A DNA stretch of 20,582 bases, taken from IMG/VR virus record IMGVR_UViG_3300046777_001203, positions 1 through 20,582 of that record. One strand, 5' to 3'. Of this stretch, positions 3,562 to 18,618 are shown piece after piece. The notes beneath the pieces are model-generated. The model was not told where the DNA came from. It worked only from the letters and a program-made list of their open reading frames with translations, and did not search any database. This DNA is from a virus. A program made the translations under genes and the position numbers. Every line of letters begins with the position of its first letter. Positions within the stretch are counted from its first letter, which is position 1.

Positions 3562-3933
3562 TCAAGCGTACATCTTCCGCAAGTCCTCATGAGAGGTCTT
3601 GGAGCCTTTGCGAAGGCCCAGCAGATGCTTCACGCTCGTCAAATCCATATCCAGCAGTCTCCCTATGTCTCCAGCCGTAAAGTTATGGTGGAAATAGAGG
3701 ATGCAAATAAATTCCTTGCGGGCTTCGACAATCGTCTGCGTCTTGCCCTTACCAAGCACATCTTCGACACGGACATTATGCTTTGCGCAAATTTTAGCGA
3801 GAAGCTCTCCGAATGTCCCTTCGACCTTTGGTATTTTAATTTTCGGGATAGGACTTGAGACAAATGCTTTCATGGCATTGGCTGCCACATTCGCGTCAGA
3901 AGAACGCATCCGATTATGCCTAATGGTGTACAT
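3562..3933 (-). CDS. DnaA domain-IV-like protein
   Basis: A 123-residue protein whose C-terminal two thirds resemble the DNA-binding domain IV of DnaA. The order is IVEARKEFICILYFHHNFTAGDIGRLL..., then MDLTSVKHLLG, corresponding to the DnaA basic helix (...aR.ia.yL), IG..fg and the TV.ha recognition helix. No AAA+ ATPase part is present, so it cannot replace DnaA; it may bind DnaA-box-like DNA, recruit or compete with host DnaA, or regulate transcription. I chose ATG 3933, preceded by GAGAGGGAAT, over the upstream ATG 3951, which has no Shine-Dalgarno. It directly precedes the initiator in the operon. Confidence 0.7.
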   Translation of the reverse strand: MYTIRHNRMRSSDANVAANAMKAFVSSPIPKIKIPKVEGTFGELLAKICAKHNVRVEDVLGKGKTQTIVEARKEFICILYFHHNFTAGDIGRLLDMDLTSVKHLLGLRKGSKTSHEDLRKMYA

Positions 3934-3968
3934 ATTCCCTCTCTTTTGCATTTATGCTAATTACAAAA

Positions 3969-4612: not shown

Positions 4613-4642
4613 TTGACATCCTTTCGTATAGCGTCATATTAT
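4613..4642 (+). promoter_or_regulatory. Sigma70-type promoter for rightward operon
   Basis: TTGACA at 4613-4618 and TATTAT at 4637-4642 are separated by 18 bases, a near-consensus sigma70 promoter. Transcription would start near 4650, leaving a leader of about 35 bases before the ERF start. The -10 lies inside the 13-base palindrome, so binding there would block it. Confidence 0.75.
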
Positions 4643-4652
4643 GACCCTGCAA
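4625..4652 (-). promoter_or_regulatory. Possible leftward promoter
   Basis: On the minus strand TTGCAG (4652-4647) is followed after 16 bases by TATACG (4630-4625). It would transcribe the HTH regulator with a start near 4618. The match is moderate, but a promoter is needed here and the palindrome fills its spacer. Confidence 0.45.
4633..4645. promoter_or_regulatory. Palindromic operator candidate in divergent promoter
   Basis: GTCATATTATGAC is a perfect 13-base palindrome with one central base. It covers the -10 of the rightward promoter and lies in the spacer of the candidate leftward promoter. The neighbouring Cro/CI-like gene is the likely source of the binding protein. Confidence 0.6.
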
Positions 4653-4685
4653 CTGATAAACAGCATATGTGTCGAAAGGGAAAGC

Positions 4686-5249
4686 ATGAAAGAATTATTT
4701 ACAGCGATGGCGGAGGTGTTCCCCAAGATTGAGGGAGCGTTAAAGGATAGCATCAATCCGCATCTCAAGAACAAATACTCCAGCCTCAACTCCGTGACGT
4801 TGGCAATCAAGCCAGCACTCGCAGAGCATGGCCTGTCGTACATCCAGAAGAGCCATCGGGCTGACGGTGGCACTTGCTGCGAAACCATCATCCTGCATTC
4901 GTCTGGTCAGAGCATTTCGTGTGGTGAGTATTTCTCGCCAGCAGCCAAGAACGATGCACAGGGATATGGCTCATCATTTACCTATGCACGGCGCTACAGC
5001 CTATCGGCAGCATTCGGTGTCTGCCCAGAGGATGATGACGGCAACGCGGCATCACAGGCTCCACAGCGCAATCAGAAATCTAATGAGAAGATCACACCGG
5101 CACAGGTGACGGAGCTTCTAGAGCTTATTGAGAAGAACGAGCGTGATCTCGTTAACCTCTGTCTCTACCTCAAGATCAACAGCCTTAGCGAGATGCCGGT
5201 GTCTGAATATCCGCGCATCAAAGCTATCGTCTCACAGAAAGCCAAGTGA
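4686..5249 (+). CDS. erf: ERF-family single-strand annealing protein
   Basis: A 187-residue recombinase of the ERF superfamily, which anneals complementary single strands in phage homologous recombination. The family features are the N-terminal MKELFTAMAEVFPKIEGALK, the segment INPHLKNKYSSLNSV, a beta-rich core, and the signature QGYGSSFTYARRYSLSAAFG followed by the acidic EDDDGNAA. The C-terminus after residue about 115 is a variable linker and a short helical tail. I chose ATG 4686, which has AAAGGGAAAGC upstream, over ATG 4641, which overlaps the promoter -10. It is the first gene of the rightward operon, directly followed by its usual exonuclease partner. Confidence 0.9.
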   Translation: MKELFTAMAEVFPKIEGALKDSINPHLKNKYSSLNSVTLAIKPALAEHGLSYIQKSHRADGGTCCETIILHSSGQSISCGEYFSPAAKNDAQGYGSSFTYARRYSLSAAFGVCPEDDDGNAASQAPQRNQKSNEKITPAQVTELLELIEKNERDLVNLCLYLKINSLSEMPVSEYPRIKAIVSQKAK

Positions 5250-5887
5250 TGTTTCTTTATATCGACGTAGAGCAAGGCTCACCGGAATGGCATCAGGCCC
5301 GCTGTGGCTCTCTGGGGGCTTCACAGGTCCATGAGGTGCTTGCGAAGACCAAGAGCGGGTATTCGGCTGCTAGAGGCAACACCATAGCTAGAATCGCTTC
5401 TGAGAGGCTCACAGGGGCCAGTCAAGAGACGTTTAAGAGCGCGGCTATGCAGTGGGGCAATGATACTGAGCCACAGGCCCGGTCAGCCTACAGTTTCTTC
5501 ACCGGCAATCAGGTGGCCGTCGTAGGGCTATTTAAGCACCCGACATTGCTCGGCACACACGCATCGCCTGACGGTCTGGTTGGCATCGATGGGCTAATCG
5601 AAATCAAATGCCCTAACACACTGACCCACATCGAAACGCTCGACAGCGAGAAGATCGATCCGAAGTATTTAACGCAGATGCAGTGGCAAATGTTCCTGAC
5701 CAATCGCGACTGGTGCGATTTCGTCAGCTTTGACCCGCGTATGCCTGATGACCTTCAGTTGTTCGTCAAACGGGTCGAGCGTGACCCAGTGCGGATCAAG
5801 GAACTCTGCGAAGAGGTAGAGAAGTTCTTGGGTGAGGTCGATCAGATGATGGACCGCATCGAAAAGATCAGGGCCAAGCGGGCATGA
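5249..5887 (+). CDS. YqaJ-type exonuclease (lambda Exo-like)
   Basis: A 212-residue nuclease of the YqaJ/lambda exonuclease family, which degrades one strand from DNA ends to give the single strands used by ERF. Visible motifs: QGSPEWHQARCGSLGAS at the N-terminus, NDTEPQA (Glu74), HASPDGLVG (Asp108), LIEIKCP (Glu118 and Lys120, the PD-(D/E)XK core), and the helix YLTQMQWQMF with Gln143/Gln146. All expected catalytic residues are present. Start is ATG 5249, sharing a base with the ERF stop; GTG 5246 is possible. The pair forms a two-component recombination system of the Red type. Confidence 0.9.
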   Translation: MFLYIDVEQGSPEWHQARCGSLGASQVHEVLAKTKSGYSAARGNTIARIASERLTGASQETFKSAAMQWGNDTEPQARSAYSFFTGNQVAVVGLFKHPTLLGTHASPDGLVGIDGLIEIKCPNTLTHIETLDSEKIDPKYLTQMQWQMFLTNRDWCDFVSFDPRMPDDLQLFVKRVERDPVRIKELCEEVEKFLGEVDQMMDRIEKIRAKRA

Positions 5888-6261
5888 AGACGATTTGGCT
5901 GAGAGGCGATCACTATCGTCGCAAAGCCCATGAGATGATTGCTGACGCACCAGATGGCTGGTGGGTTATGTTTGGGCCACCGTCCCGGTCCAATGCGCAG
6001 AACAGAAAGATGCGCGGGATGTTGCGGGACATAATGAACTCAAAGCCGCAAGGCCGTGAGATGACGGAAGAGGATTGGAAGGCGGTCTTTATGGACGCAC
6101 TAGGTCTGAAGCCACGTTACACGACCAACCTTGATGGTGATGGGATTGTTCATCTGGGATGGCGCTCGTCCCTTATGAGCAAAGAGCAAATGAGCGAAAT
6201 GATAGAGCTAATGTATGCGTTCGGAGCGCAGCATGGCGTACAATGGCAAGATAGGAACTAA
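5884..6261 (+). CDS. ninB: NinB-family recombination protein
   Basis: A 125-residue protein of the lambda NinB (Orf) family, which in lambda helps load the annealing protein and substitutes for RecFOR. Recognisable features are the N-terminal HYRRKAHEMIADAPDGWWV, the short GPPSRSNAQNRKM segment, the EEDWKAVFMDALG segment and the C-terminal MSEMIELMYAFGAQHGVQW. It overlaps the exonuclease stop in an ATGA junction, so the three are translated together. Length fits the family. Confidence 0.8.
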   Translation: MKTIWLRGDHYRRKAHEMIADAPDGWWVMFGPPSRSNAQNRKMRGMLRDIMNSKPQGREMTEEDWKAVFMDALGLKPRYTTNLDGDGIVHLGWRSSLMSKEQMSEMIELMYAFGAQHGVQWQDRN

Positions 6262-6263
6262 TT

Positions 6264-6650
6264 ATGCAACTGGTGATTATTGACGGAAATGTTGGCCGTG
6301 ACGCTGAAGTCCGCGAGATGAAAGACGGGACACCGTGCATCTCGTTTACCGTAGCTGTGCGTGATCCGCGCAATCGTGAGCAGACCAACTGGTATCGCTG
6401 CGACTACTTCGGCAAACGCGGTATGGCCGTCCAGCCGTACATCAGGAAGGGTACTTCTGTTTACCTGACTGGATCGTATTCGATTGGGGAATACGAAGGC
6501 AAGGCAACCCACAACGTAACGGTTAACGAACTCTCGTTCATCAACAAAGAACGCGGTGAAGAGCCAGTCCGCAAGCCGACGGCGCATGATGAAGCCAAGC
6601 GCAATGGCTACCAGCCGCAGGGCGATCTCGACGACTCAATTCCATTTTAA
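6264..6650 (+). CDS. ssb: Single-stranded DNA-binding protein
   Basis: A 128-residue SSB. The OB-fold occupies residues 1-95: VIIDGNVGRDAEVREMKDGT, the ISFTVAVRD strand, NWYRCDYFGKRG and VYLTGSYSIGEYEG. The basic/hydrophilic tail ends in the classic acidic tip DDSIPF, which recruits partner proteins such as exonucleases and recombination factors. It coats single strands during replication and ERF-driven annealing. AGGA lies ahead of ATG 6264, two bases after the NinB stop. Confidence 0.92.
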   Translation: MQLVIIDGNVGRDAEVREMKDGTPCISFTVAVRDPRNREQTNWYRCDYFGKRGMAVQPYIRKGTSVYLTGSYSIGEYEGKATHNVTVNELSFINKERGEEPVRKPTAHDEAKRNGYQPQGDLDDSIPF

Positions 6651-6673
6651 GGGTAAAGGAAAGGGGAATTAAC

Positions 6674-6811
6674 ATGGCACAACTTTATCGCTCTTATGAG
6701 GATTACATCCGTCCTAAGTATCCTAACAAGATTGTGATCGAACGCACCGAGAAGAAGCCGGGTGATCTGGTTGTCACGACCAGCAGCAAGCCAGCGGAGA
6801 AGGTGAAATGA
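6674..6811 (+). CDS. 45-residue hypothetical protein
   Basis: Starting ATG 6674 behind AAGGGGAATTAAC, this small basic protein begins MAQLYRSYEDYIRPKYP and has many Lys/Glu residues toward the end. The stop overlaps the next start as ATGA. No domain is recognised. Placed between SSB and a transcription-like protein, it is probably a small early accessory protein. Confidence 0.65.
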   Translation: MAQLYRSYEDYIRPKYPNKIVIERTEKKPGDLVVTTSSKPAEKVK

Positions 6812-7251
6812 GACAGGAAATCAGAGAACTCTACAAATCTAGAAATGAAGCTCTTGTATCTGACAGAGACGACCTAAAGATGACTTGGGCAGATATTGGC
6901 AGGAAATATGGAGTCTCAAGTGTCCGCGCAAAGCAGATTTATGTGAAGATTTACCGTGAGATGGCGAAGCCACCCAAGGCTCCGTTCGATCCATCAAATC
7001 TTCTAGATAAGCTGATCGATGATCTCCCTTTATCGAACAGATTTAAGAACTGCATTTATTATTATGGTAGATACACATTAGAAACCTACAAGATTGAAGG
7101 ATTTAAAGAATATCATAGGGGCTTTATCAAAGTCTCTGACATAATTCACCTTAAAGACAGCGATTTACTTGAGATTGAAAATTTTGGTGCTGTAACATTG
7201 GATGAATGGCGCGACTTCTTGAAGGAGATGCGTGATGCCGGTCAATTATAA
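6808..7251 (+). CDS. Sigma region-4-like HTH plus alpha-CTD-like protein
   Basis: A 147-residue protein with two recognisable halves. Residues about 26-51 (TWADIGRKYGVSSVRAKQIY...) match the sigma70 region 4.2 pattern tleEIG..fgVSreRvrQIe. Residues about 74-141 resemble the RNA polymerase alpha C-terminal domain: LSNRFKNCI has Arg78, Asn81 and Cys82 in the places of E. coli RpoA R265, N268 and C269, and LLEIENFGAVTLDEWRDFL matches the second hairpin (Asn125, Gly127). About 15 extra residues separate the alpha-CTD helices. It could contact promoter DNA and RNA polymerase and redirect host transcription, or act as an anti-factor. GGAGAAGG precedes ATG 6808. Function is inferred from these matches. 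Confidence 0.7.
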   Translation: MRQEIRELYKSRNEALVSDRDDLKMTWADIGRKYGVSSVRAKQIYVKIYREMAKPPKAPFDPSNLLDKLIDDLPLSNRFKNCIYYYGRYTLETYKIEGFKEYHRGFIKVSDIIHLKDSDLLEIENFGAVTLDEWRDFLKEMRDAGQL

Positions 7252-7456
7252 TAAGGTAGTCCGCAAGGAGGTGGCCGAAGGGGAGGCTATCAGCCCGAAG
7301 AACCGGCGCGATTTCAACATCGAACTGCATTTAGAGGAGGCATCGTGGAACCACTACGTTGCCATCCTCAAAAGCAGGAAGTTGTTCGGTATGCCATCTA
7401 AGGACATACTCCAAGAAATTGTGAATGATTCCAAAGCATTAGGATTAATACGATGA
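7235..7456 (+). CDS. Hypothetical protein, 73 residues
   Basis: A small charged protein beginning MPVNYNKVVRKEVAEGEA, with a C-terminal helical part ending in KALGLIR. GTG 7232 is in frame, but ATG 7235 sits seven bases from GAAGGAG, the better spacing. It overlaps the previous gene by 17 bases and the next by four (ATGA). The second half (ELHLEEASWNHYVAILKSRK, then IVNDSKALG) could be a ribbon-helix-helix-like or coiled unit, but the match is not firm. Confidence 0.65.
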   Translation: MPVNYNKVVRKEVAEGEAISPKNRRDFNIELHLEEASWNHYVAILKSRKLFGMPSKDILQEIVNDSKALGLIR

Positions 7457-10886: not shown

Positions 10887-12687
10887 ATTGGTCCTCCACC
10901 ATGTCATCCCATGTCTGATCCTGCCCCCTCATCATTCGATATAATGCCAGATTTGCGTCTGGTATGCGACGACCCTTGTAGATGTCTTTCGGCTGGTAAA
11001 AAGGAACATCTGGAATCCGGGCTTGCGTATATGCTGAATAGCCTTCTGGTGCTGCTGCCAGTTGGATCATTGTCGAACTATCCTCTGATGCCATGTCGCC
11101 AACATCGGTAGGTGTACCAGCCGACATCTCGCCCTGCATACCAAGCAATTCTAATTGTTGCGCCTGACCTACCGGGCTGGAGAACTCCCCCATGCCGGTT
11201 GCCGGTGCTGCGCCAAACGTCGGCCCTTCTGTCGGCATCAGGCTATAGGTGATACCGGCAGTTTCGGTTGTAGTCTGCTCACCGTGCTGTTGGGCATATT
11301 GCGCATCAGCCTGTGCCACGAACGCTACATTCTGGGCAGTTACCTGCAACACCGTCTCACGATCAAAATAGGCCGCATCTTCAATCGCCTCACGCTGGAA
11401 GAACTCCATATTCTTATCACTGCGCGGATCGGACGAATTAAAGCCACCTACAGACGCATCGTTTGCGCTTGCGGCACTTACTGCCAAAGCAGATGAAATA
11501 ACGCCCTGAGTGGCCTCTAAATCGCTTTTAAGGGTATCTGGGCTATCATCCTTACGATCTGTGCGCTGAGTATCGCTTTGAGATGCGTCAATCGCCTGAG
11601 ATTTATCCTGAGTTGATGAAGTTGAGATAGTTGACCTGCCATCTTCGGATTTGGCTGCGTCAGATGCAGACTGCGCTTCAGATGCGGATTCAGCGACAGC
11701 TTCCATAGCGCCGGACAATTCAGCCTGAGTTACATCATCGGACAGGGCTGTAGAATCTTGCGCCGCAGAAAGAGCAGCCACTTCATTTGGATCAAGTCGA
11801 TCCACATCTTCAGATTCAGCAACCTCTTCCGTTTCTGCAACCTCATCAATAGCCGCCTCTTCAGCTTCAACAACCTCTTCAGCAACAGCTACATCTTCGA
11901 CAGCAGCATCAACTTCTTGTTGAATTTCAACAACTTCTTCAGTTTCTTCTTGCGGCGTATCGGTTACCACATTTGTGGTAGCTTCTTCGGTCACCTGCTC
12001 CTGCATAGGCTCATCAACAGTCACCGGGTTATCGATGATCTCAGGTGCGCCAGTAGGTGAAATGTCGATTGGAGGCTCTGGATCTGGTTGGGTTGCAGGT
12101 GTGCCAGCAATGTAAGATGTGTTATCTAACAGGTTCACATCCTGACCGTAGAACAGCGTGATGCTCTGCTCCATTGTGGGGCCAGTCAGGCCAGCACCAA
12201 CCATGTGCCATTGATTGTTTACGTCACCATAATTCCACTGAATCTTGCCATCAGGAAACAGCGCAATCTCAAACGTGTTCAGGCCGCTCGATCCGTATTC
12301 ATTGGTGTTATACCAGCCGAATAGCGCCATATTGCTGTCGGTGCGGTAGTAGGGGTTCGGCCCACTAACTAAGTCGGTCCAAAGGCCGTAGATCGTGTTG
12401 CGCTGCGCATCCTGTAGCGGGAAGGCATTGCAGCAGTAATTGTTGTTGCTGTCGAACGCGACAAGGCCGTTAGTGGACACCCATGCGGATGTGAATGTCT
12501 GGCCGAAATACTCAAACGGGAAAGGAAGCTGCACCAGATGTGAGCTATCATCGCCACCGTTAAGCGGGATCGTTGTCTGAGGCGATCCAAGCAACTGAGG
12601 CGGGATAAGAACCGGGTTGTAGTCTTGAGCCGCTACCGGCCAGCAGATCAGCGCCGCGAAGAACGCTTGGGCTTGTTTGATTCCCAT
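10879..12687 (-). CDS. Exported nidogen-domain (NIDO) protein
   Basis: A 602-residue protein. Residues 1-21 are a Sec signal peptide (hydrophobic AQAFFAALICWPVAAQ, cleavage after AAQ). Residues about 45-190 match the NIDO extracellular domain: PFPFEYFGQTFTSAWVSTNG, NTIYGLWTDL, NTFEIALFPDGKIQWNYGD. Residues 200-310 are Pro- then Glu/Val/Ala-rich and very acidic; 310-420 are Ser/Ala/Asp/Gln-rich. The last 55 residues (IPDVPFYQPKDIYKGRRIPD...) form a compact conserved-looking tail. An extracellular or periplasmic adhesion role is inferred. Start ATG 12687 follows GAGG and lies 40 bases inside the upstream gene's end. Confidence 0.75.
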   Translation of the reverse strand: MGIKQAQAFFAALICWPVAAQDYNPVLIPPQLLGSPQTTIPLNGGDDSSHLVQLPFPFEYFGQTFTSAWVSTNGLVAFDSNNNYCCNAFPLQDAQRNTIYGLWTDLVSGPNPYYRTDSNMALFGWYNTNEYGSSGLNTFEIALFPDGKIQWNYGDVNNQWHMVGAGLTGPTMEQSITLFYGQDVNLLDNTSYIAGTPATQPDPEPPIDISPTGAPEIIDNPVTVDEPMQEQVTEEATTNVVTDTPQEETEEVVEIQQEVDAAVEDVAVAEEVVEAEEAAIDEVAETEEVAESEDVDRLDPNEVAALSAAQDSTALSDDVTQAELSGAMEAVAESASEAQSASDAAKSEDGRSTISTSSTQDKSQAIDASQSDTQRTDRKDDSPDTLKSDLEATQGVISSALAVSAASANDASVGGFNSSDPRSDKNMEFFQREAIEDAAYFDRETVLQVTAQNVAFVAQADAQYAQQHGEQTTTETAGITYSLMPTEGPTFGAAPATGMGEFSSPVGQAQQLELLGMQGEMSAGTPTDVGDMASEDSSTMIQLAAAPEGYSAYTQARIPDVPFYQPKDIYKGRRIPDANLALYRMMRGQDQTWDDMVEDQYE

Positions 12688-13853
12688 GCCGCTGCCGCCT
12701 CTTTGCCGATCTTGCCTTCGTAGGGGCAAGGTGTGCCAGCCATCTTCATGGCATCAAATACACGTTCATCCTGACAGAGCAGTGACACAGCAGCCACCCG
12801 CATACCCATGTCGTATAGCGTCTTAGATAGCTTGAGGGCTTCGCAATTCTTGTCGCGGATCGTCTTACCACCAGAGATGCCGAGTATCTGCGTCTGAACG
12901 GCCCCAGACACGCCTGTGGTGCAGAGGTCTTGGCTGTAGCTCATCATGGACGGCGCAATGGCTGATGGTGGCGGGGACTTGATATTCTGGTCAATCACCT
13001 GCCGGTTCACGCTCTCACTGTAGCTGGTAGATTTGCTGTCGTTGATATTGACGTTGTTGTTCTGATTGACGTTCGTGTTCTCAGACACCGACGTATTCTG
13101 ATTTACGTTGGTATTGGTGCTGACCGAGCGACTGTCATTGACGTTCGTGTTCACGTTAATGCTCTCGCTAGTCGAGACATTCGTGTTCACGTTCGTATTG
13201 TTCGATGTACTGGTTGAGGTGCTATCGTTGTAGTTGCGATTGGTATTATCGCTCGTCGATAAGCTATTGTTTTGATTGATATTTGTGTTTGTCGATGTGG
13301 ACGTATTGAAGTTGGTATTTGTTGATGTCGATGTGCTGATGTTCGTGTTCAGGTTCTCAGACGTAGACGTATTCACGTTGTTGTTGTTGTTTGTGTTCGT
13401 CGATGTCGAGACGTTTGTGTTCAGATTAGTATTTGCCGACGTACTGGTGACGGTGCTTGCATTTGTGCTGTTCACCGTCTGATTGACCGTGCTGGTCGAG
13501 ACATCGGTGTTGAAGTTATTGTTCGTCGCTGTGCTGGTAGACGTATTCGTGTTCTGATTGATGTTCGTAGCCGTCCCAGATTGCACATTGTAATTGGTGT
13601 TCGACGATGTGCTGGTAGACGTATTTACGTTGTTATTCGTATTTGTCGTCGTGGCCGTGCTAGTCGATGTTGAGACGTTATTGTTGTTATTCGTGTTAGT
13701 GGTAGTCGCCGTCGAAGTAGACGTATTGACGTTTGTGTTCGTGTTAGTCGCCGTCGAGTTCGTCGTTGTATCGTAGACATAGTTCGTGGTCTGGGCGACC
13801 ACCATGCTGGACCAGCCTACTGCAACGAGAACAAGAAAGCGTTTATTTACCAC
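12648..13853 (-). CDS. Exported Asn/Thr/Ser-repeat protein
   Basis: A 401-residue protein. Residues 1-20 are a Sec signal peptide (MVNKRFLVLVAVGWSSMVVA, cleavage near AQ). Residues about 28-284 are about 16 imperfect Asn/Thr/Ser units of 10-18 residues, typically NTNxN followed by VSTST. The last 117 residues form a separate domain with four cysteines (near 311, 337, 360 and 376), containing LYDMGMRVAAVSLLCQDERV and AGTPCPYEGKIGKEAA. Start is GTG 13853, preceded by AGGTAGCGGATC. The repeat tract could form a beta-solenoid or fibre outside the cell. It overlaps the NIDO gene by 40 bases and they are probably co-expressed. Confidence 0.75.
   Translation of the reverse strand: MVNKRFLVLVAVGWSSMVVAQTTNYVYDTTTNSTATNTNTNVNTSTSTATTTNTNNNNNVSTSTSTATTTNTNNNVNTSTSTSSNTNYNVQSGTATNINQNTNTSTSTATNNNFNTDVSTSTVNQTVNSTNASTVTSTSANTNLNTNVSTSTNTNNNNNVNTSTSENLNTNISTSTSTNTNFNTSTSTNTNINQNNSLSTSDNTNRNYNDSTSTSTSNNTNVNTNVSTSESINVNTNVNDSRSVSTNTNVNQNTSVSENTNVNQNNNVNINDSKSTSYSESVNRQVIDQNIKSPPPSAIAPSMMSYSQDLCTTGVSGAVQTQILGISGGKTIRDKNCEALKLSKTLYDMGMRVAAVSLLCQDERVFDAMKMAGTPCPYEGKIGKEAAAAWESNKPKRSSRR
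13000..13775 (-). repeat. Imperfect repeat tract encoding NTN/STST units
   Basis: This stretch encodes the Asn/Thr/Ser units of the exported repeat protein. The DNA is built of related phrases (gtattcgtgtt, gtcgatgt, gtagacgtatt) arranged every 30-54 bases, but codons vary between units. It is a degenerate coding repeat, not a simple tandem satellite. Confidence 0.75.
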
Positions 13854-15123: not shown

Positions 15124-18100
15124 TTAGTAGGTTGGAAATGCCTTATCAGGCGGTGTGAAGTTAGCTGTGTAGCGGGCGTAGCCTTTGGTGATGCGCAGGT
15201 CGTCGATGTAGCCGTTCCAATACTCGTTAACACCAGCTACTTGGAGTCCTCCAACGATAATCCCATACCATGCGGTATTGTTATTTAAAGCTCCAGAAAT
15301 AGTCTGCGTTGTAGCTGATACCGTTCCATTTAAAAATGCCCTAATCGTATTCCCAGAGCGAGTCATAGCGACATGATACCATGTCCCTGTTGAAATAGTG
15401 CCAAGGCTTATCCCGTAATCAGTAGTGCTTTTATATGGTCGAGCATAAAGCGTAGAGCCGGAACGATAAAATGACCACTGCAACTCATCACCAGTTGCGA
15501 TGTTACCTGCTGCAGAGCGAGCGACAATTGCAGCATTTCCTGCAGCTACAGTATTAGTGTAGACCCAAAATTCAATGGTCCAATCACCGCTTGCAAGATT
15601 CATATCCTCACTTGGAGCCGCAAGGATACGATCACCTGTCCCATCAAACGCAATTGACGACCCGCCAAACTTAGACACCGCCGTGCTGACCTTAGCGTCG
15701 CCCACAGTCTCAAGATCGTTGATGCCGGTTGCGTCGTAGATGCCAGCGTTCATGCCGTTGAGGAGGAGCGTGGTGGCTGCGGTGGGTGTTACTGGTGCGG
15801 TGGGTGGTGTGAAGGTGGTAGATACTCCAGAACCTTTTACAATCCGCATCCCAGACATATAACCTTGGAACCAGCCAGAACCGACGCTATCATTAAACTG
15901 ACCAATCCAAGGATTAGTTTGCAGGTAGTTGGTGCTATCAACATAAGTTGACCCACTCTGAACGCCATTGATAAACAACCGGGTGTTGCCGCTTACACGA
16001 CTAACGCAGAGATGCGACCAAGCCCCGTTAGGAATTGCGCCGCCGGTAATCCGCACCCCAGTGTTAGCATACCAGTTAATGCTTGCCCCATTATTTAGGC
16101 TGTAAAGTGTTCCATATGCGCCATTTGATCCGGGACGGAAGTCTATGATGCAGTCATTGTTGCTCGAGCCATGACCGCCTTGAACAATCGGATACACCCA
16201 AACTTCCAGCGTGAAGTCGCCAGAGCCAAGTGCGTAGTTTAGGCTGTTTTGTAGGGCCAGATAGTCCCCACTACCATCAAAGTACATCGACCCGCCGTTG
16301 CTGGCGATGGTGGACGTATAGAATGGATCGAAGGATTGGATAGTTGGCGCGCCAGCTAAAGTAATCGCAAAGTTGTTTGTGCTGTTATCAATGAAACGAC
16401 TGCTCTGGCAGGTTAGCAAAACGGTATTAGTAATTGCCGTCAGCGGCGAAGTGGGCGGCGTAAATGCAGCAGTATAAACAGCAGTGCCGTTTACAAAGCG
16501 GAGATTAGAAATGTAACCTGCAAAGAAGTTATTGCCCGAGCCGTCCCAGCGCCGACCAACATACCAACCATCGCCGTTTGACCCAGTGACACCCCATGTC
16601 GCGGCAGGGGTTGGAGAAGAGGTCTTCGTGACATCGACGCCATTGTAGTAAATCTTGGTGGTCGAACCCGTGAAAACGCACGCGATATGCGTCCACGTAT
16701 TCAGAGAAACCTGCGCATTTGCAATAGCTGCTGTCACCCAAGCAGACCCGGTGTAATACCCGAGAGCGATGTACTGCCCGTTGATAGCATCAACCTGAAC
16801 ACCGTTAGACATGGAAATACAAATTGGGATGCTATTGCCCGCTCCCGTATACACATCAGTAAAAATGCAGCTTCCCGCAGCAGTCGGGTAAATCCACGCC
16901 TCAATGGTAAACGCCGTCGTAGAGGTAGCAATCGCAAACTGCGAGCTTGACGGCAGCGTGAGGTTGGCGCTGACACCATCAAAATAGTTGCTATAATACC
17001 CAGTCTGGAACGGATTGTTGCCCGTGACGGTGCTGTTGCCGTTGATGGTTATGGCGAAGTTATTCGTGCTGTTGTCCGTGAACGCTGCGTTCTGGCAGGT
17101 GAGCAGTGATGTTCCGCTGATGGCAGTGAGAGGTGCGGTTGGTGGAGTGAAGTTAGCCGTGTAAACTGCTGTGCCTTTGACGATGCGAAGGTTGGATAGA
17201 TAACCTGTAAAATAGGCGGGATTTGCAGTATAAGGGGAACGCCCAATATTAAGGCCAGTAGCTGCTGTCGTAATGTTCTGGGCATTAGCAACAGGAGTGC
17301 CGCCAACCCCATTAACATAAACAGTTACGTTGCCACTAGAGCGAACAACGGCAACATGATGCCATACCCCAAGAGTTCTTGCGGCTGCATTCCCAGCTAC
17401 TGGTGAATAGGATGTAGATACAGCACTTACAAAATAAAATCCATTTGATGTGTCTGTACCAAATGACCAGCCAGTTACTGGCTCACCAGTTGTCCATCCA
17501 GCAACAAAAACAGTATTGCCGGTGCTTGGAAAATACGCCCATGTCTCAATGGTGAAATCGCCAGTCCCAAAATCAAACGCATCATTGTCAGCGATGGAAA
17601 GCCAATCATTGCCATCAAAATGCCCAGACCAATACTGGATGTCGTTCTGGTTGTAGGTGATGCCGGGCGCAGCAGGTGCAAATGGACTGATCTTACTTAC
17701 TGTAGCGCCGCCAGTTACGGTCAATGTGAGATTGTTAGGGCTAATGTCGCGGAAGCGATTGCTCTGACAGGTAAGGAGCTTGGTGTTCGTAACCGCAGTC
17801 AGTGCAGATGTAGGCGGCGTAAAATTGCCGGTATAAACCGCTGTTCCGCGCACGATACGCAGATTGCTGATATTGCCAGTAAGGCAACGTCCAAATGATT
17901 GACCAACAACCAATCCAAATGATGTGCTTGATTGAGGAGTCCCAGAAACAGCAGTCGTCGTAGATGCTACGCCATTCACATAAATCGTAATCCCGGCTGA
18001 CGTTTTTGTCAGCGCGATATGCGACCATGCATTTTCTGAAATCGTTGCCGTGCTTGTTACGGTATTCTGGCTTCCATTATAGTAATATAGACGGACAGTG

Positions 18101-18618
18101 CCATTACCTATCGGTCCAAAGCTCCAGTAATTTGTTTCGCCACCGGGATCAACATTCCCGACCATAGTGGAATACCCTCTCTCATCCTGCCAAGTTGAAA
18201 GGCCGGTAGGGTATACCCATGCTTCAATTGTGAAATCAGTAGACCACCAATCGAAATTCGCGGATGTATACGGGACAGAGAAATAGTCACTGCTGCCATC
18301 GAAATAGTTAGACCAGTCCGATCCATATGGGCTGAAGCTACCCTGTGTGGCGTTACCGTTTCGGCTAATCGGGTTGAACGCGCCGCTGCTGTCCACGAAC
18401 AGGTTGTTGTTAGCATTACCAAGAGCGGTGCTGGATAACAGTAGCGACACCCTAGAGAAATATGGGTCTAAAACTATACTAGCATCAGGCCAAACACCCT
18501 GCTTTACCCAATAGGCGACCTCTTCCAATCTCCATACGCCGGGAGCAGAGCCAGATGCGGATGGACCTGTCGGAGTAGCCGGTGATTTGGTGATGATGCC
18601 GCCCTGATAGTTACTCAT
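15124..18618 (-). CDS. Adhesin with five LamG/ConA-like repeats
   Basis: A 1164-residue protein. Residues 1-45 are an N-terminal module (MSNYQGGIITKSPATPTGPS, then VWRLEEVAYWVKQGVW) shared with the next upstream protein. Five laminin-G-like lectin units follow, near residues 102-305, 330-535, 543-765, 775-980 and 985-1160, each with SNYFDG-like start, DFTIEAWVYP, WSHIALT, YVNG, and NLRIV.GTAVYT.NFTPPT. A repeated link (LLTCQ..., F.DNSTNNFAIT) separates them. No signal peptide is seen. It is probably a tail fibre or virion adhesin binding host glycans. AAGGTGAAGTGAA precedes ATG 18618. Confidence 0.85.
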   Translation of the reverse strand: MSNYQGGIITKSPATPTGPSASGSAPGVWRLEEVAYWVKQGVWPDASIVLDPYFSRVSLLLSSTALGNANNNLFVDSSGAFNPISRNGNATQGSFSPYGSDWSNYFDGSSDYFSVPYTSANFDWWSTDFTIEAWVYPTGLSTWQDERGYSTMVGNVDPGGETNYWSFGPIGNGTVRLYYYNGSQNTVTSTATISENAWSHIALTKTSAGITIYVNGVASTTTAVSGTPQSSTSFGLVVGQSFGRCLTGNISNLRIVRGTAVYTGNFTPPTSALTAVTNTKLLTCQSNRFRDISPNNLTLTVTGGATVSKISPFAPAAPGITYNQNDIQYWSGHFDGNDWLSIADNDAFDFGTGDFTIETWAYFPSTGNTVFVAGWTTGEPVTGWSFGTDTSNGFYFVSAVSTSYSPVAGNAAARTLGVWHHVAVVRSSGNVTVYVNGVGGTPVANAQNITTAATGLNIGRSPYTANPAYFTGYLSNLRIVKGTAVYTANFTPPTAPLTAISGTSLLTCQNAAFTDNSTNNFAITINGNSTVTGNNPFQTGYYSNYFDGVSANLTLPSSSQFAIATSTTAFTIEAWIYPTAAGSCIFTDVYTGAGNSIPICISMSNGVQVDAINGQYIALGYYTGSAWVTAAIANAQVSLNTWTHIACVFTGSTTKIYYNGVDVTKTSSPTPAATWGVTGSNGDGWYVGRRWDGSGNNFFAGYISNLRFVNGTAVYTAAFTPPTSPLTAITNTVLLTCQSSRFIDNSTNNFAITLAGAPTIQSFDPFYTSTIASNGGSMYFDGSGDYLALQNSLNYALGSGDFTLEVWVYPIVQGGHGSSNNDCIIDFRPGSNGAYGTLYSLNNGASINWYANTGVRITGGAIPNGAWSHLCVSRVSGNTRLFINGVQSGSTYVDSTNYLQTNPWIGQFNDSVGSGWFQGYMSGMRIVKGSGVSTTFTPPTAPVTPTAATTLLLNGMNAGIYDATGINDLETVGDAKVSTAVSKFGGSSIAFDGTGDRILAAPSEDMNLASGDWTIEFWVYTNTVAAGNAAIVARSAAGNIATGDELQWSFYRSGSTLYARPYKSTTDYGISLGTISTGTWYHVAMTRSGNTIRAFLNGTVSATTQTISGALNNNTAWYGIIVGGLQVAGVNEYWNGYIDDLRITKGYARYTANFTPPDKAFPTY

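Follow-up and report, generated by a model that had tools for sequence, protein, structure and literature searches.

Host RNA polymerase makes two kinds of DNA contact on the upstream side of the −10 element: sigma region 4 sits on the −35 element and the C-terminal domain of the alpha subunit (alpha-CTD) sits on the UP element. Phages modify or appropriate both of these domains. In phage T4, sigma appropriation by MotA/AsiA together with Alt/ModA represents a strategy aimed at the −35/region 4 and UP/alpha-CTD contacts (PMC2988021), and Alt and ModA ADP-ribosylate Arg265 of alpha (PMC2988021). These are separate proteins and enzymes, and no copy of alpha-CTD or region 4 is described in that paper. 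The group 2 jumbo phages encode minimal sigma factors with a single helix-turn-helix (HTH), small phage proteins with a sigma-type HTH for which no alpha-CTD is mentioned there (PMC7824862). The structure of E. coli alpha-CTD and sigma region 4 on UP/−35 DNA (PDB 3n97) contains the two domain types considered here as separate chains on one DNA. In the phage protein described below, the same two domain types are joined in one polypeptide by a short linker.

The protein is encoded in a virus contig of 20,582 nucleotides (the window). The features of the locus are as follows.

4613-4642, plus strand: sigma70-type promoter-like site (TTGACA, 18 bases, TATTAT), 5' of the operon.
4641-6811, plus strand: upstream operon genes for ERF recombinase, YqaJ exonuclease, NinB, SSB and a 45-aa peptide.
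6796-6799, plus strand: likely ribosome-binding site GGAG, assigned from the sequence.
6808-7251, plus strand: coding sequence of the 147-aa protein, an intact reading frame with ATG at 6808 and stop at 7251.
6811-6966, plus strand: tri-helical HTH domain, residues 2-53, from profile, PDB sequence search and models; residues 26-51 follow sigma region 4.2.
6991-7236, plus strand: alpha-CTD-like domain, residues 62-143, from profile and structure models; the likeness to RpoA starts at the linker PFDP.
7072-7125, plus strand: insert of about 18 residues after the first alpha-CTD helix, residues 89-106 (approximate).
7235-7456, plus strand: downstream gene (MPVNYNKVV...), overlapping the 3' end of the 147-aa coding sequence.

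The gene is real at the coordinates first proposed for it, with GGAG placed 8 bases before the ATG. All genes of the operon are on the plus strand, in the order ERF, YqaJ, NinB, SSB, 45-aa peptide and 147-aa gene, followed by more small genes. The sequence of the promoter-like site is also found in the virus contig L008, and its −35 hexamer in L005. The site overlaps the first ATG (4641) of the ERF reading frame (window 4641-4688, plus strand), and the in-frame ATG at 4686 (MKELF...), which follows GAAAGGGAAAGC, is the likelier ERF start. Three other genes of the window, all on the minus strand, deserve a record. A 129-aa protein (3562-3951) weakly matches the DNA-binding domain at the C-terminus of DnaA (PF08299, 25.2 bits against a cut-off of 31.5), and its gene adjoins a lambda-O-like replication initiation gene. 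A 401-aa reading frame (12648-13853) contains a long Asn/Thr/Ser low-complexity stretch (NTNVNTSTS...). A 1164-aa reading frame (15124-18618), near a collagen-like tail-fibre-type gene, consists of repeated similar units, and segment ends of the form ...FTPPTSPLTA recur in it.

The C-terminal half scores 31 bits (E-value 2.1e-7) against the Pfam profile of the bacterial alpha-CTD (PF03118, RNA_pol_A_CTD), which exceeds the curated threshold of 23.8. A six-frame family search returned this match in two pieces, at profile positions 9-28 and 34-67, with the insert between them. A PDB sequence search with the whole protein returned almost only RpoA chains. Their E-values are all weak; one of these matches has the linker PFDP (residues 59-62) aligned to PFNP ahead of the RpoA domain, which argues for descent from RpoA and not from a generic helix-hairpin-helix. 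The C-terminal domain is the sole part of RpoA that is matched (NCBIfam rpoA, 20.6 bits against a cut-off of 227.8); the alpha N-terminal domain is missing and the HTH is fused in front. By alignment, Arg78, Asn81, Cys82, Asn125 and Gly127 occupy the positions of R265, N268, C269, N294 and G296, in the numbering of E. coli alpha, and these five equivalences are as the preliminary description gave them. Asp72 (D259), Thr130 (S299) and Glu133 (E302) are likewise kept, and Ala128 and Val129 are found at K297 and K298. Of the DNA-contact set R265, N268, N294, G296, K298, S299 and E302, all but K298 are kept, S299 as Thr, so that the contact residues are mostly but not fully retained. Because Val129 and Ala128 replace the basic pair K297/K298, the affinity of the domain for DNA may be lower than that of RpoA. 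The position of E261, which contacts sigma in RpoA, is Pro both here and in the ortholog from L005. The insert had been put at about 15 residues; Arg78 to Asn125 spans 47 positions compared with 29 from R265 to N294, so that its length is about 18.

The assignment of the N-terminal half to sigma-70 region 4 is supported, but less strongly. The PF04545 (Sigma-70 region 4) score is 17.6 bits (E 0.0027), under the cut-off of 24.1. However, residues 1-59 found only sigma-A region 4 in the PDB sequence search, with weak matches to 4g6d (E 0.47) and 4g8x (E 1.3), and the HTH pattern TWADIGRKYGVSSVRAKQI aligns with TLEEVGKVFGVTRERIRQI of sigma-A. The proposal that residues 26-51 follow the pattern of sigma 4.2 agrees with the PDB matches, at a Pfam score below the threshold. 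Structural matches of the HTH include sigma-A/sigma70 with Z-scores of about 7 and identities of 22-29%, and DeoR, HetR and the G20c small terminase with Z-scores of about 8 and identities of 4-9%. Descent of the HTH from sigma region 4 is probable; the sequence favors it, and structure alone is indifferent. R584 and E585, with which sigma 4.2 chiefly reads bases, are Ser38 and Val39 here. There is no match to sigma region 2 in the 147-aa protein, and the HTH, linker and alpha-CTD account for its full length. A minimal sigma-like factor, in which the region-4-like domain would sit on the beta flap and the alpha-CTD would add a UP-element contact, is very unlikely for a protein that has neither region 2 nor region 3 and scores below the PF04545 cut-off, even though sigma region 4 comes closest to the HTH in sequence and jumbo phages provide examples of minimal sigma factors with a single HTH (PMC7824862).

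AlphaFold2 models were calculated from two alignments. The one with two sequences, the window protein and its ortholog only, gave a pLDDT of 73, and the one with 41 phage sequences gave 91. In the two-sequence model the C-terminal half (from residue ~62) matches RpoA C-terminal domains with a Z-score of 8.6. In the 41-sequence model the Z-score is 9.7, with 1.4 Å over 62 residues, and the top 22 structural matches are all RpoA-type alpha C-terminal domains; the alignment behind this model contains alpha-CTD relatives, so that the modelled fold and the profile match are not independent lines of evidence. Foldseek E-values for the 41-sequence model were all above 0.1, and we put weight on the profile match and the Z-scores. 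Lrp/AsnC proteins led the first Foldseek list, but their TM-scores were below 0.3 with rmsd values of 13-16 Å, and in the list for the better model RpoA ranks ahead of them. The two-sequence model shows the insert as a beta-hairpin and the other as a low-confidence loop; therefore, no fold is assigned to it. Compared with 3n97, the model of the 147-aa protein gives a Z-score of 8.7 for alpha-CTD and 1.8 Å over 48 columns for region 4. The preliminary description had assigned residues 74-141 to the RpoA C-terminal domain, and had named a single unrelated fold or a lack of profile similarity as evidence against its reading. Both points were examined, and an RpoA-CTD fold and a PF03118 score above the cut-off were found. 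The profiles, the structure predictions and the homolog that a related phage has at this locus support the domain reading.

This homolog was found in related virus contigs, which were located through NinB and SSB searches. L005 and L006, apparently one virus in two contigs, encode a protein of 177 aa in the same operon slot, with 36% identity over 128 residues. Both of its domains are recognizable, with scores below the cut-offs (alpha-CTD 18.9 bits, sigma 17.4 bits). Its insert has only 2 residues, and it has Gly at the N268 position and Asp at the K298 position. No counterpart of the 147-aa gene separates the 45-aa peptide from the gene that follows it in L008, L004 and L007. The downstream gene directly adjoins the 45-aa peptide in L008 and L004, and in DNA alignments homologous sequence continues on either side of the point at which the gene has been cleanly gained or lost. 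The G+C content of the 147-aa gene is 39% (GC3 0.41) compared with 51-55% in the recombination and SSB genes, and that of the L005 copy is 41% compared with 50-52%. Such AT-rich copies fit an acquired accessory gene or cassette; gain in two lineages and loss in several are both compatible with the distribution. Searches for close relatives with the protein itself gave only partial matches in viral or bacterial contigs, phages and plasmids. Among virus contigs, profile-style searches led back to the L005/L006 virus alone, and bacterial genomes gave no match.

Alpha-CTD-like proteins are present in other phages as well. One DNA pattern of fixed spacing (R..NC + NFG..S..E) identified them in 49 virus contigs. 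All 43 proteins scanned, which include the window protein and its ortholog, match PF03118 at an E-value of 0.01 or better, and 10 of them also match PF04545; both domains are over the cut-off in, for example, L029, L034, L061, L068 and L073. One of the 43 has an additional weak match to the RNA polymerase dimerisation domain. The R, N, C, N, F, G, S/T and E residues were set by the search pattern in the 42 others and are uninformative there. The K298 position was left free by the pattern, and a basic residue (K or R) occupies it in 34 of these 42 domains, an argument for continued DNA binding in the family. A second pattern, NFGxxTLxEW, added four contigs that encode the small proteins listed below, in which the alpha-CTD-like domain has a longer loop between R..NC and NFG.

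L077, 5169-5573.
L082, 3355-3756.
L083.
L086, 4835-5221.

No sigma match was found in the three of these four contigs that were scanned. Among named phages, Ruegeria phage V16, Bacillus phage Goe8 and Microbacterium phage Mazun have alpha-CTD-like proteins, and no sigma-type HTH is evident by eye in them. In phage V16 (L016, 3932-4798) the domain is N-terminal in a longer protein whose RefSeq name is pyrophosphatase. Two proteins on the minus strand (L031, 4804-5832; L068, 2149-3123) have three parts, a MerR/excisionase-like HTH, a sigma-region-4-like HTH and an alpha-CTD. Several of the phage alpha-CTD proteins match NCBIfam NF033442 (BREX PglW) at positions ~785-858, a sequence match that suggests an alpha-CTD-like domain in the PglW defence kinase.

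The surroundings of these genes bear on their role. The neighbors are the small and large terminase genes in L029, large terminase in L038, DNA polymerase A in L036 and an AAA_24 and PD-(D/E)XK pair in L073, and such terminase or replication/recombination surroundings would plausibly suit phage regulators. At the locus in the window, the recombination genes nearby also make a non-transcriptional role possible, in which the protein would be an accessory DNA-binding protein of the ERF-YqaJ-NinB-SSB module and no regulator. Its gene directly follows SSB and the 45-aa peptide, the alpha-CTD fold includes a helix-hairpin-helix, which is a general DNA-binding element, and some members adjoin DNA polymerase A or the AAA_24 and PD-(D/E)XK pair. 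However, close relatives with the whole module lack the gene, members elsewhere adjoin terminase genes, and RpoA-specific residues are retained beyond those of a generic hairpin. We therefore regard this role as improbable.

The data show the domain composition, the retained contact residues, the place of the gene in the operon and its occurrence among relatives; from them we infer that the protein binds DNA, is expressed early and takes part in transcription. The function that we propose with moderate confidence is that of an accessory early regulator of transcription, which binds DNA through two promoter-type contacts. This reading is based on the retained alpha-CTD DNA-binding features and HTH, the lack of a polymerase-joining part, and an operon behind a sigma70-type promoter-like site. 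Expression would be early because of the place of the gene in the recombination/SSB operon behind that site. The sigma-region-4-like HTH would take the major groove and the alpha-CTD copy the adjacent minor groove, probably A/T-rich, the two DNA-binding modules being tied by the short linker. Lacking sigma region 2 as well as the N-terminal domain of alpha, the protein is not a complete sigma factor or polymerase subunit and would have to act from the DNA. The mostly kept alpha-CTD contacts, the Pro at E261 and the Ser38/Val39 pair lead us to favor, on sequence grounds, DNA binding over polymerase docking, and a binding site unlike the −35 consensus.

The preliminary description had suggested that the protein could redirect host RNA polymerase to phage promoters, or block it. 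A regulator of this kind may activate phage promoters or block promoters, and we would place activation slightly ahead. The protein may otherwise interfere with the host enzyme, by covering UP/−35-type DNA or by contacting host sigma region 4 or alpha-CTD, and so keep polymerase off host or early phage promoters. It has the two DNA-contact modules of polymerase free of the catalytic parts, Asp72 retains the D259 position, and a phage attack on the same contact is known from the modification of alpha Arg265 by T4 Alt and ModA (PMC2988021). The Pro at the E261 position in both orthologs speaks against such interference, and with positions 584 and 585 of sigma 4.2 changed, competition at consensus −35 elements is not expected. 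This explanation is rather unlikely, although the least so of the alternatives to the early regulator.

Each of the two domains is known already, and so are phage proteins resembling alpha-CTD or sigma, at least as annotations. The preliminary description knew of no system with this plan; we found no description of a sigma-region-4/alpha-CTD fusion among the matches listed in the open-access literature searched, but the plan itself recurs in several phage contigs, and phages may in this way imitate promoter recognition by the polymerase. No PHROGs family with an alpha-CTD label was matched by any of the 43 scanned proteins. Considering this together with the literature, annotation pipelines probably miss the group. 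A protein that combines the two domain types and recurs across phage contigs would give phages a separate way to control promoters, and would be small enough to serve in studies of how UP and −35 contacts cooperate. More speculatively, and with a likelihood that we consider low, these proteins may form an apparently undescribed, widespread class of regulators in which region 4 and alpha-CTD in one chain replace the −35 and UP contacts at phage promoters; such a class would carry a portable copy of the upstream promoter-recognition surface of RNA polymerase.
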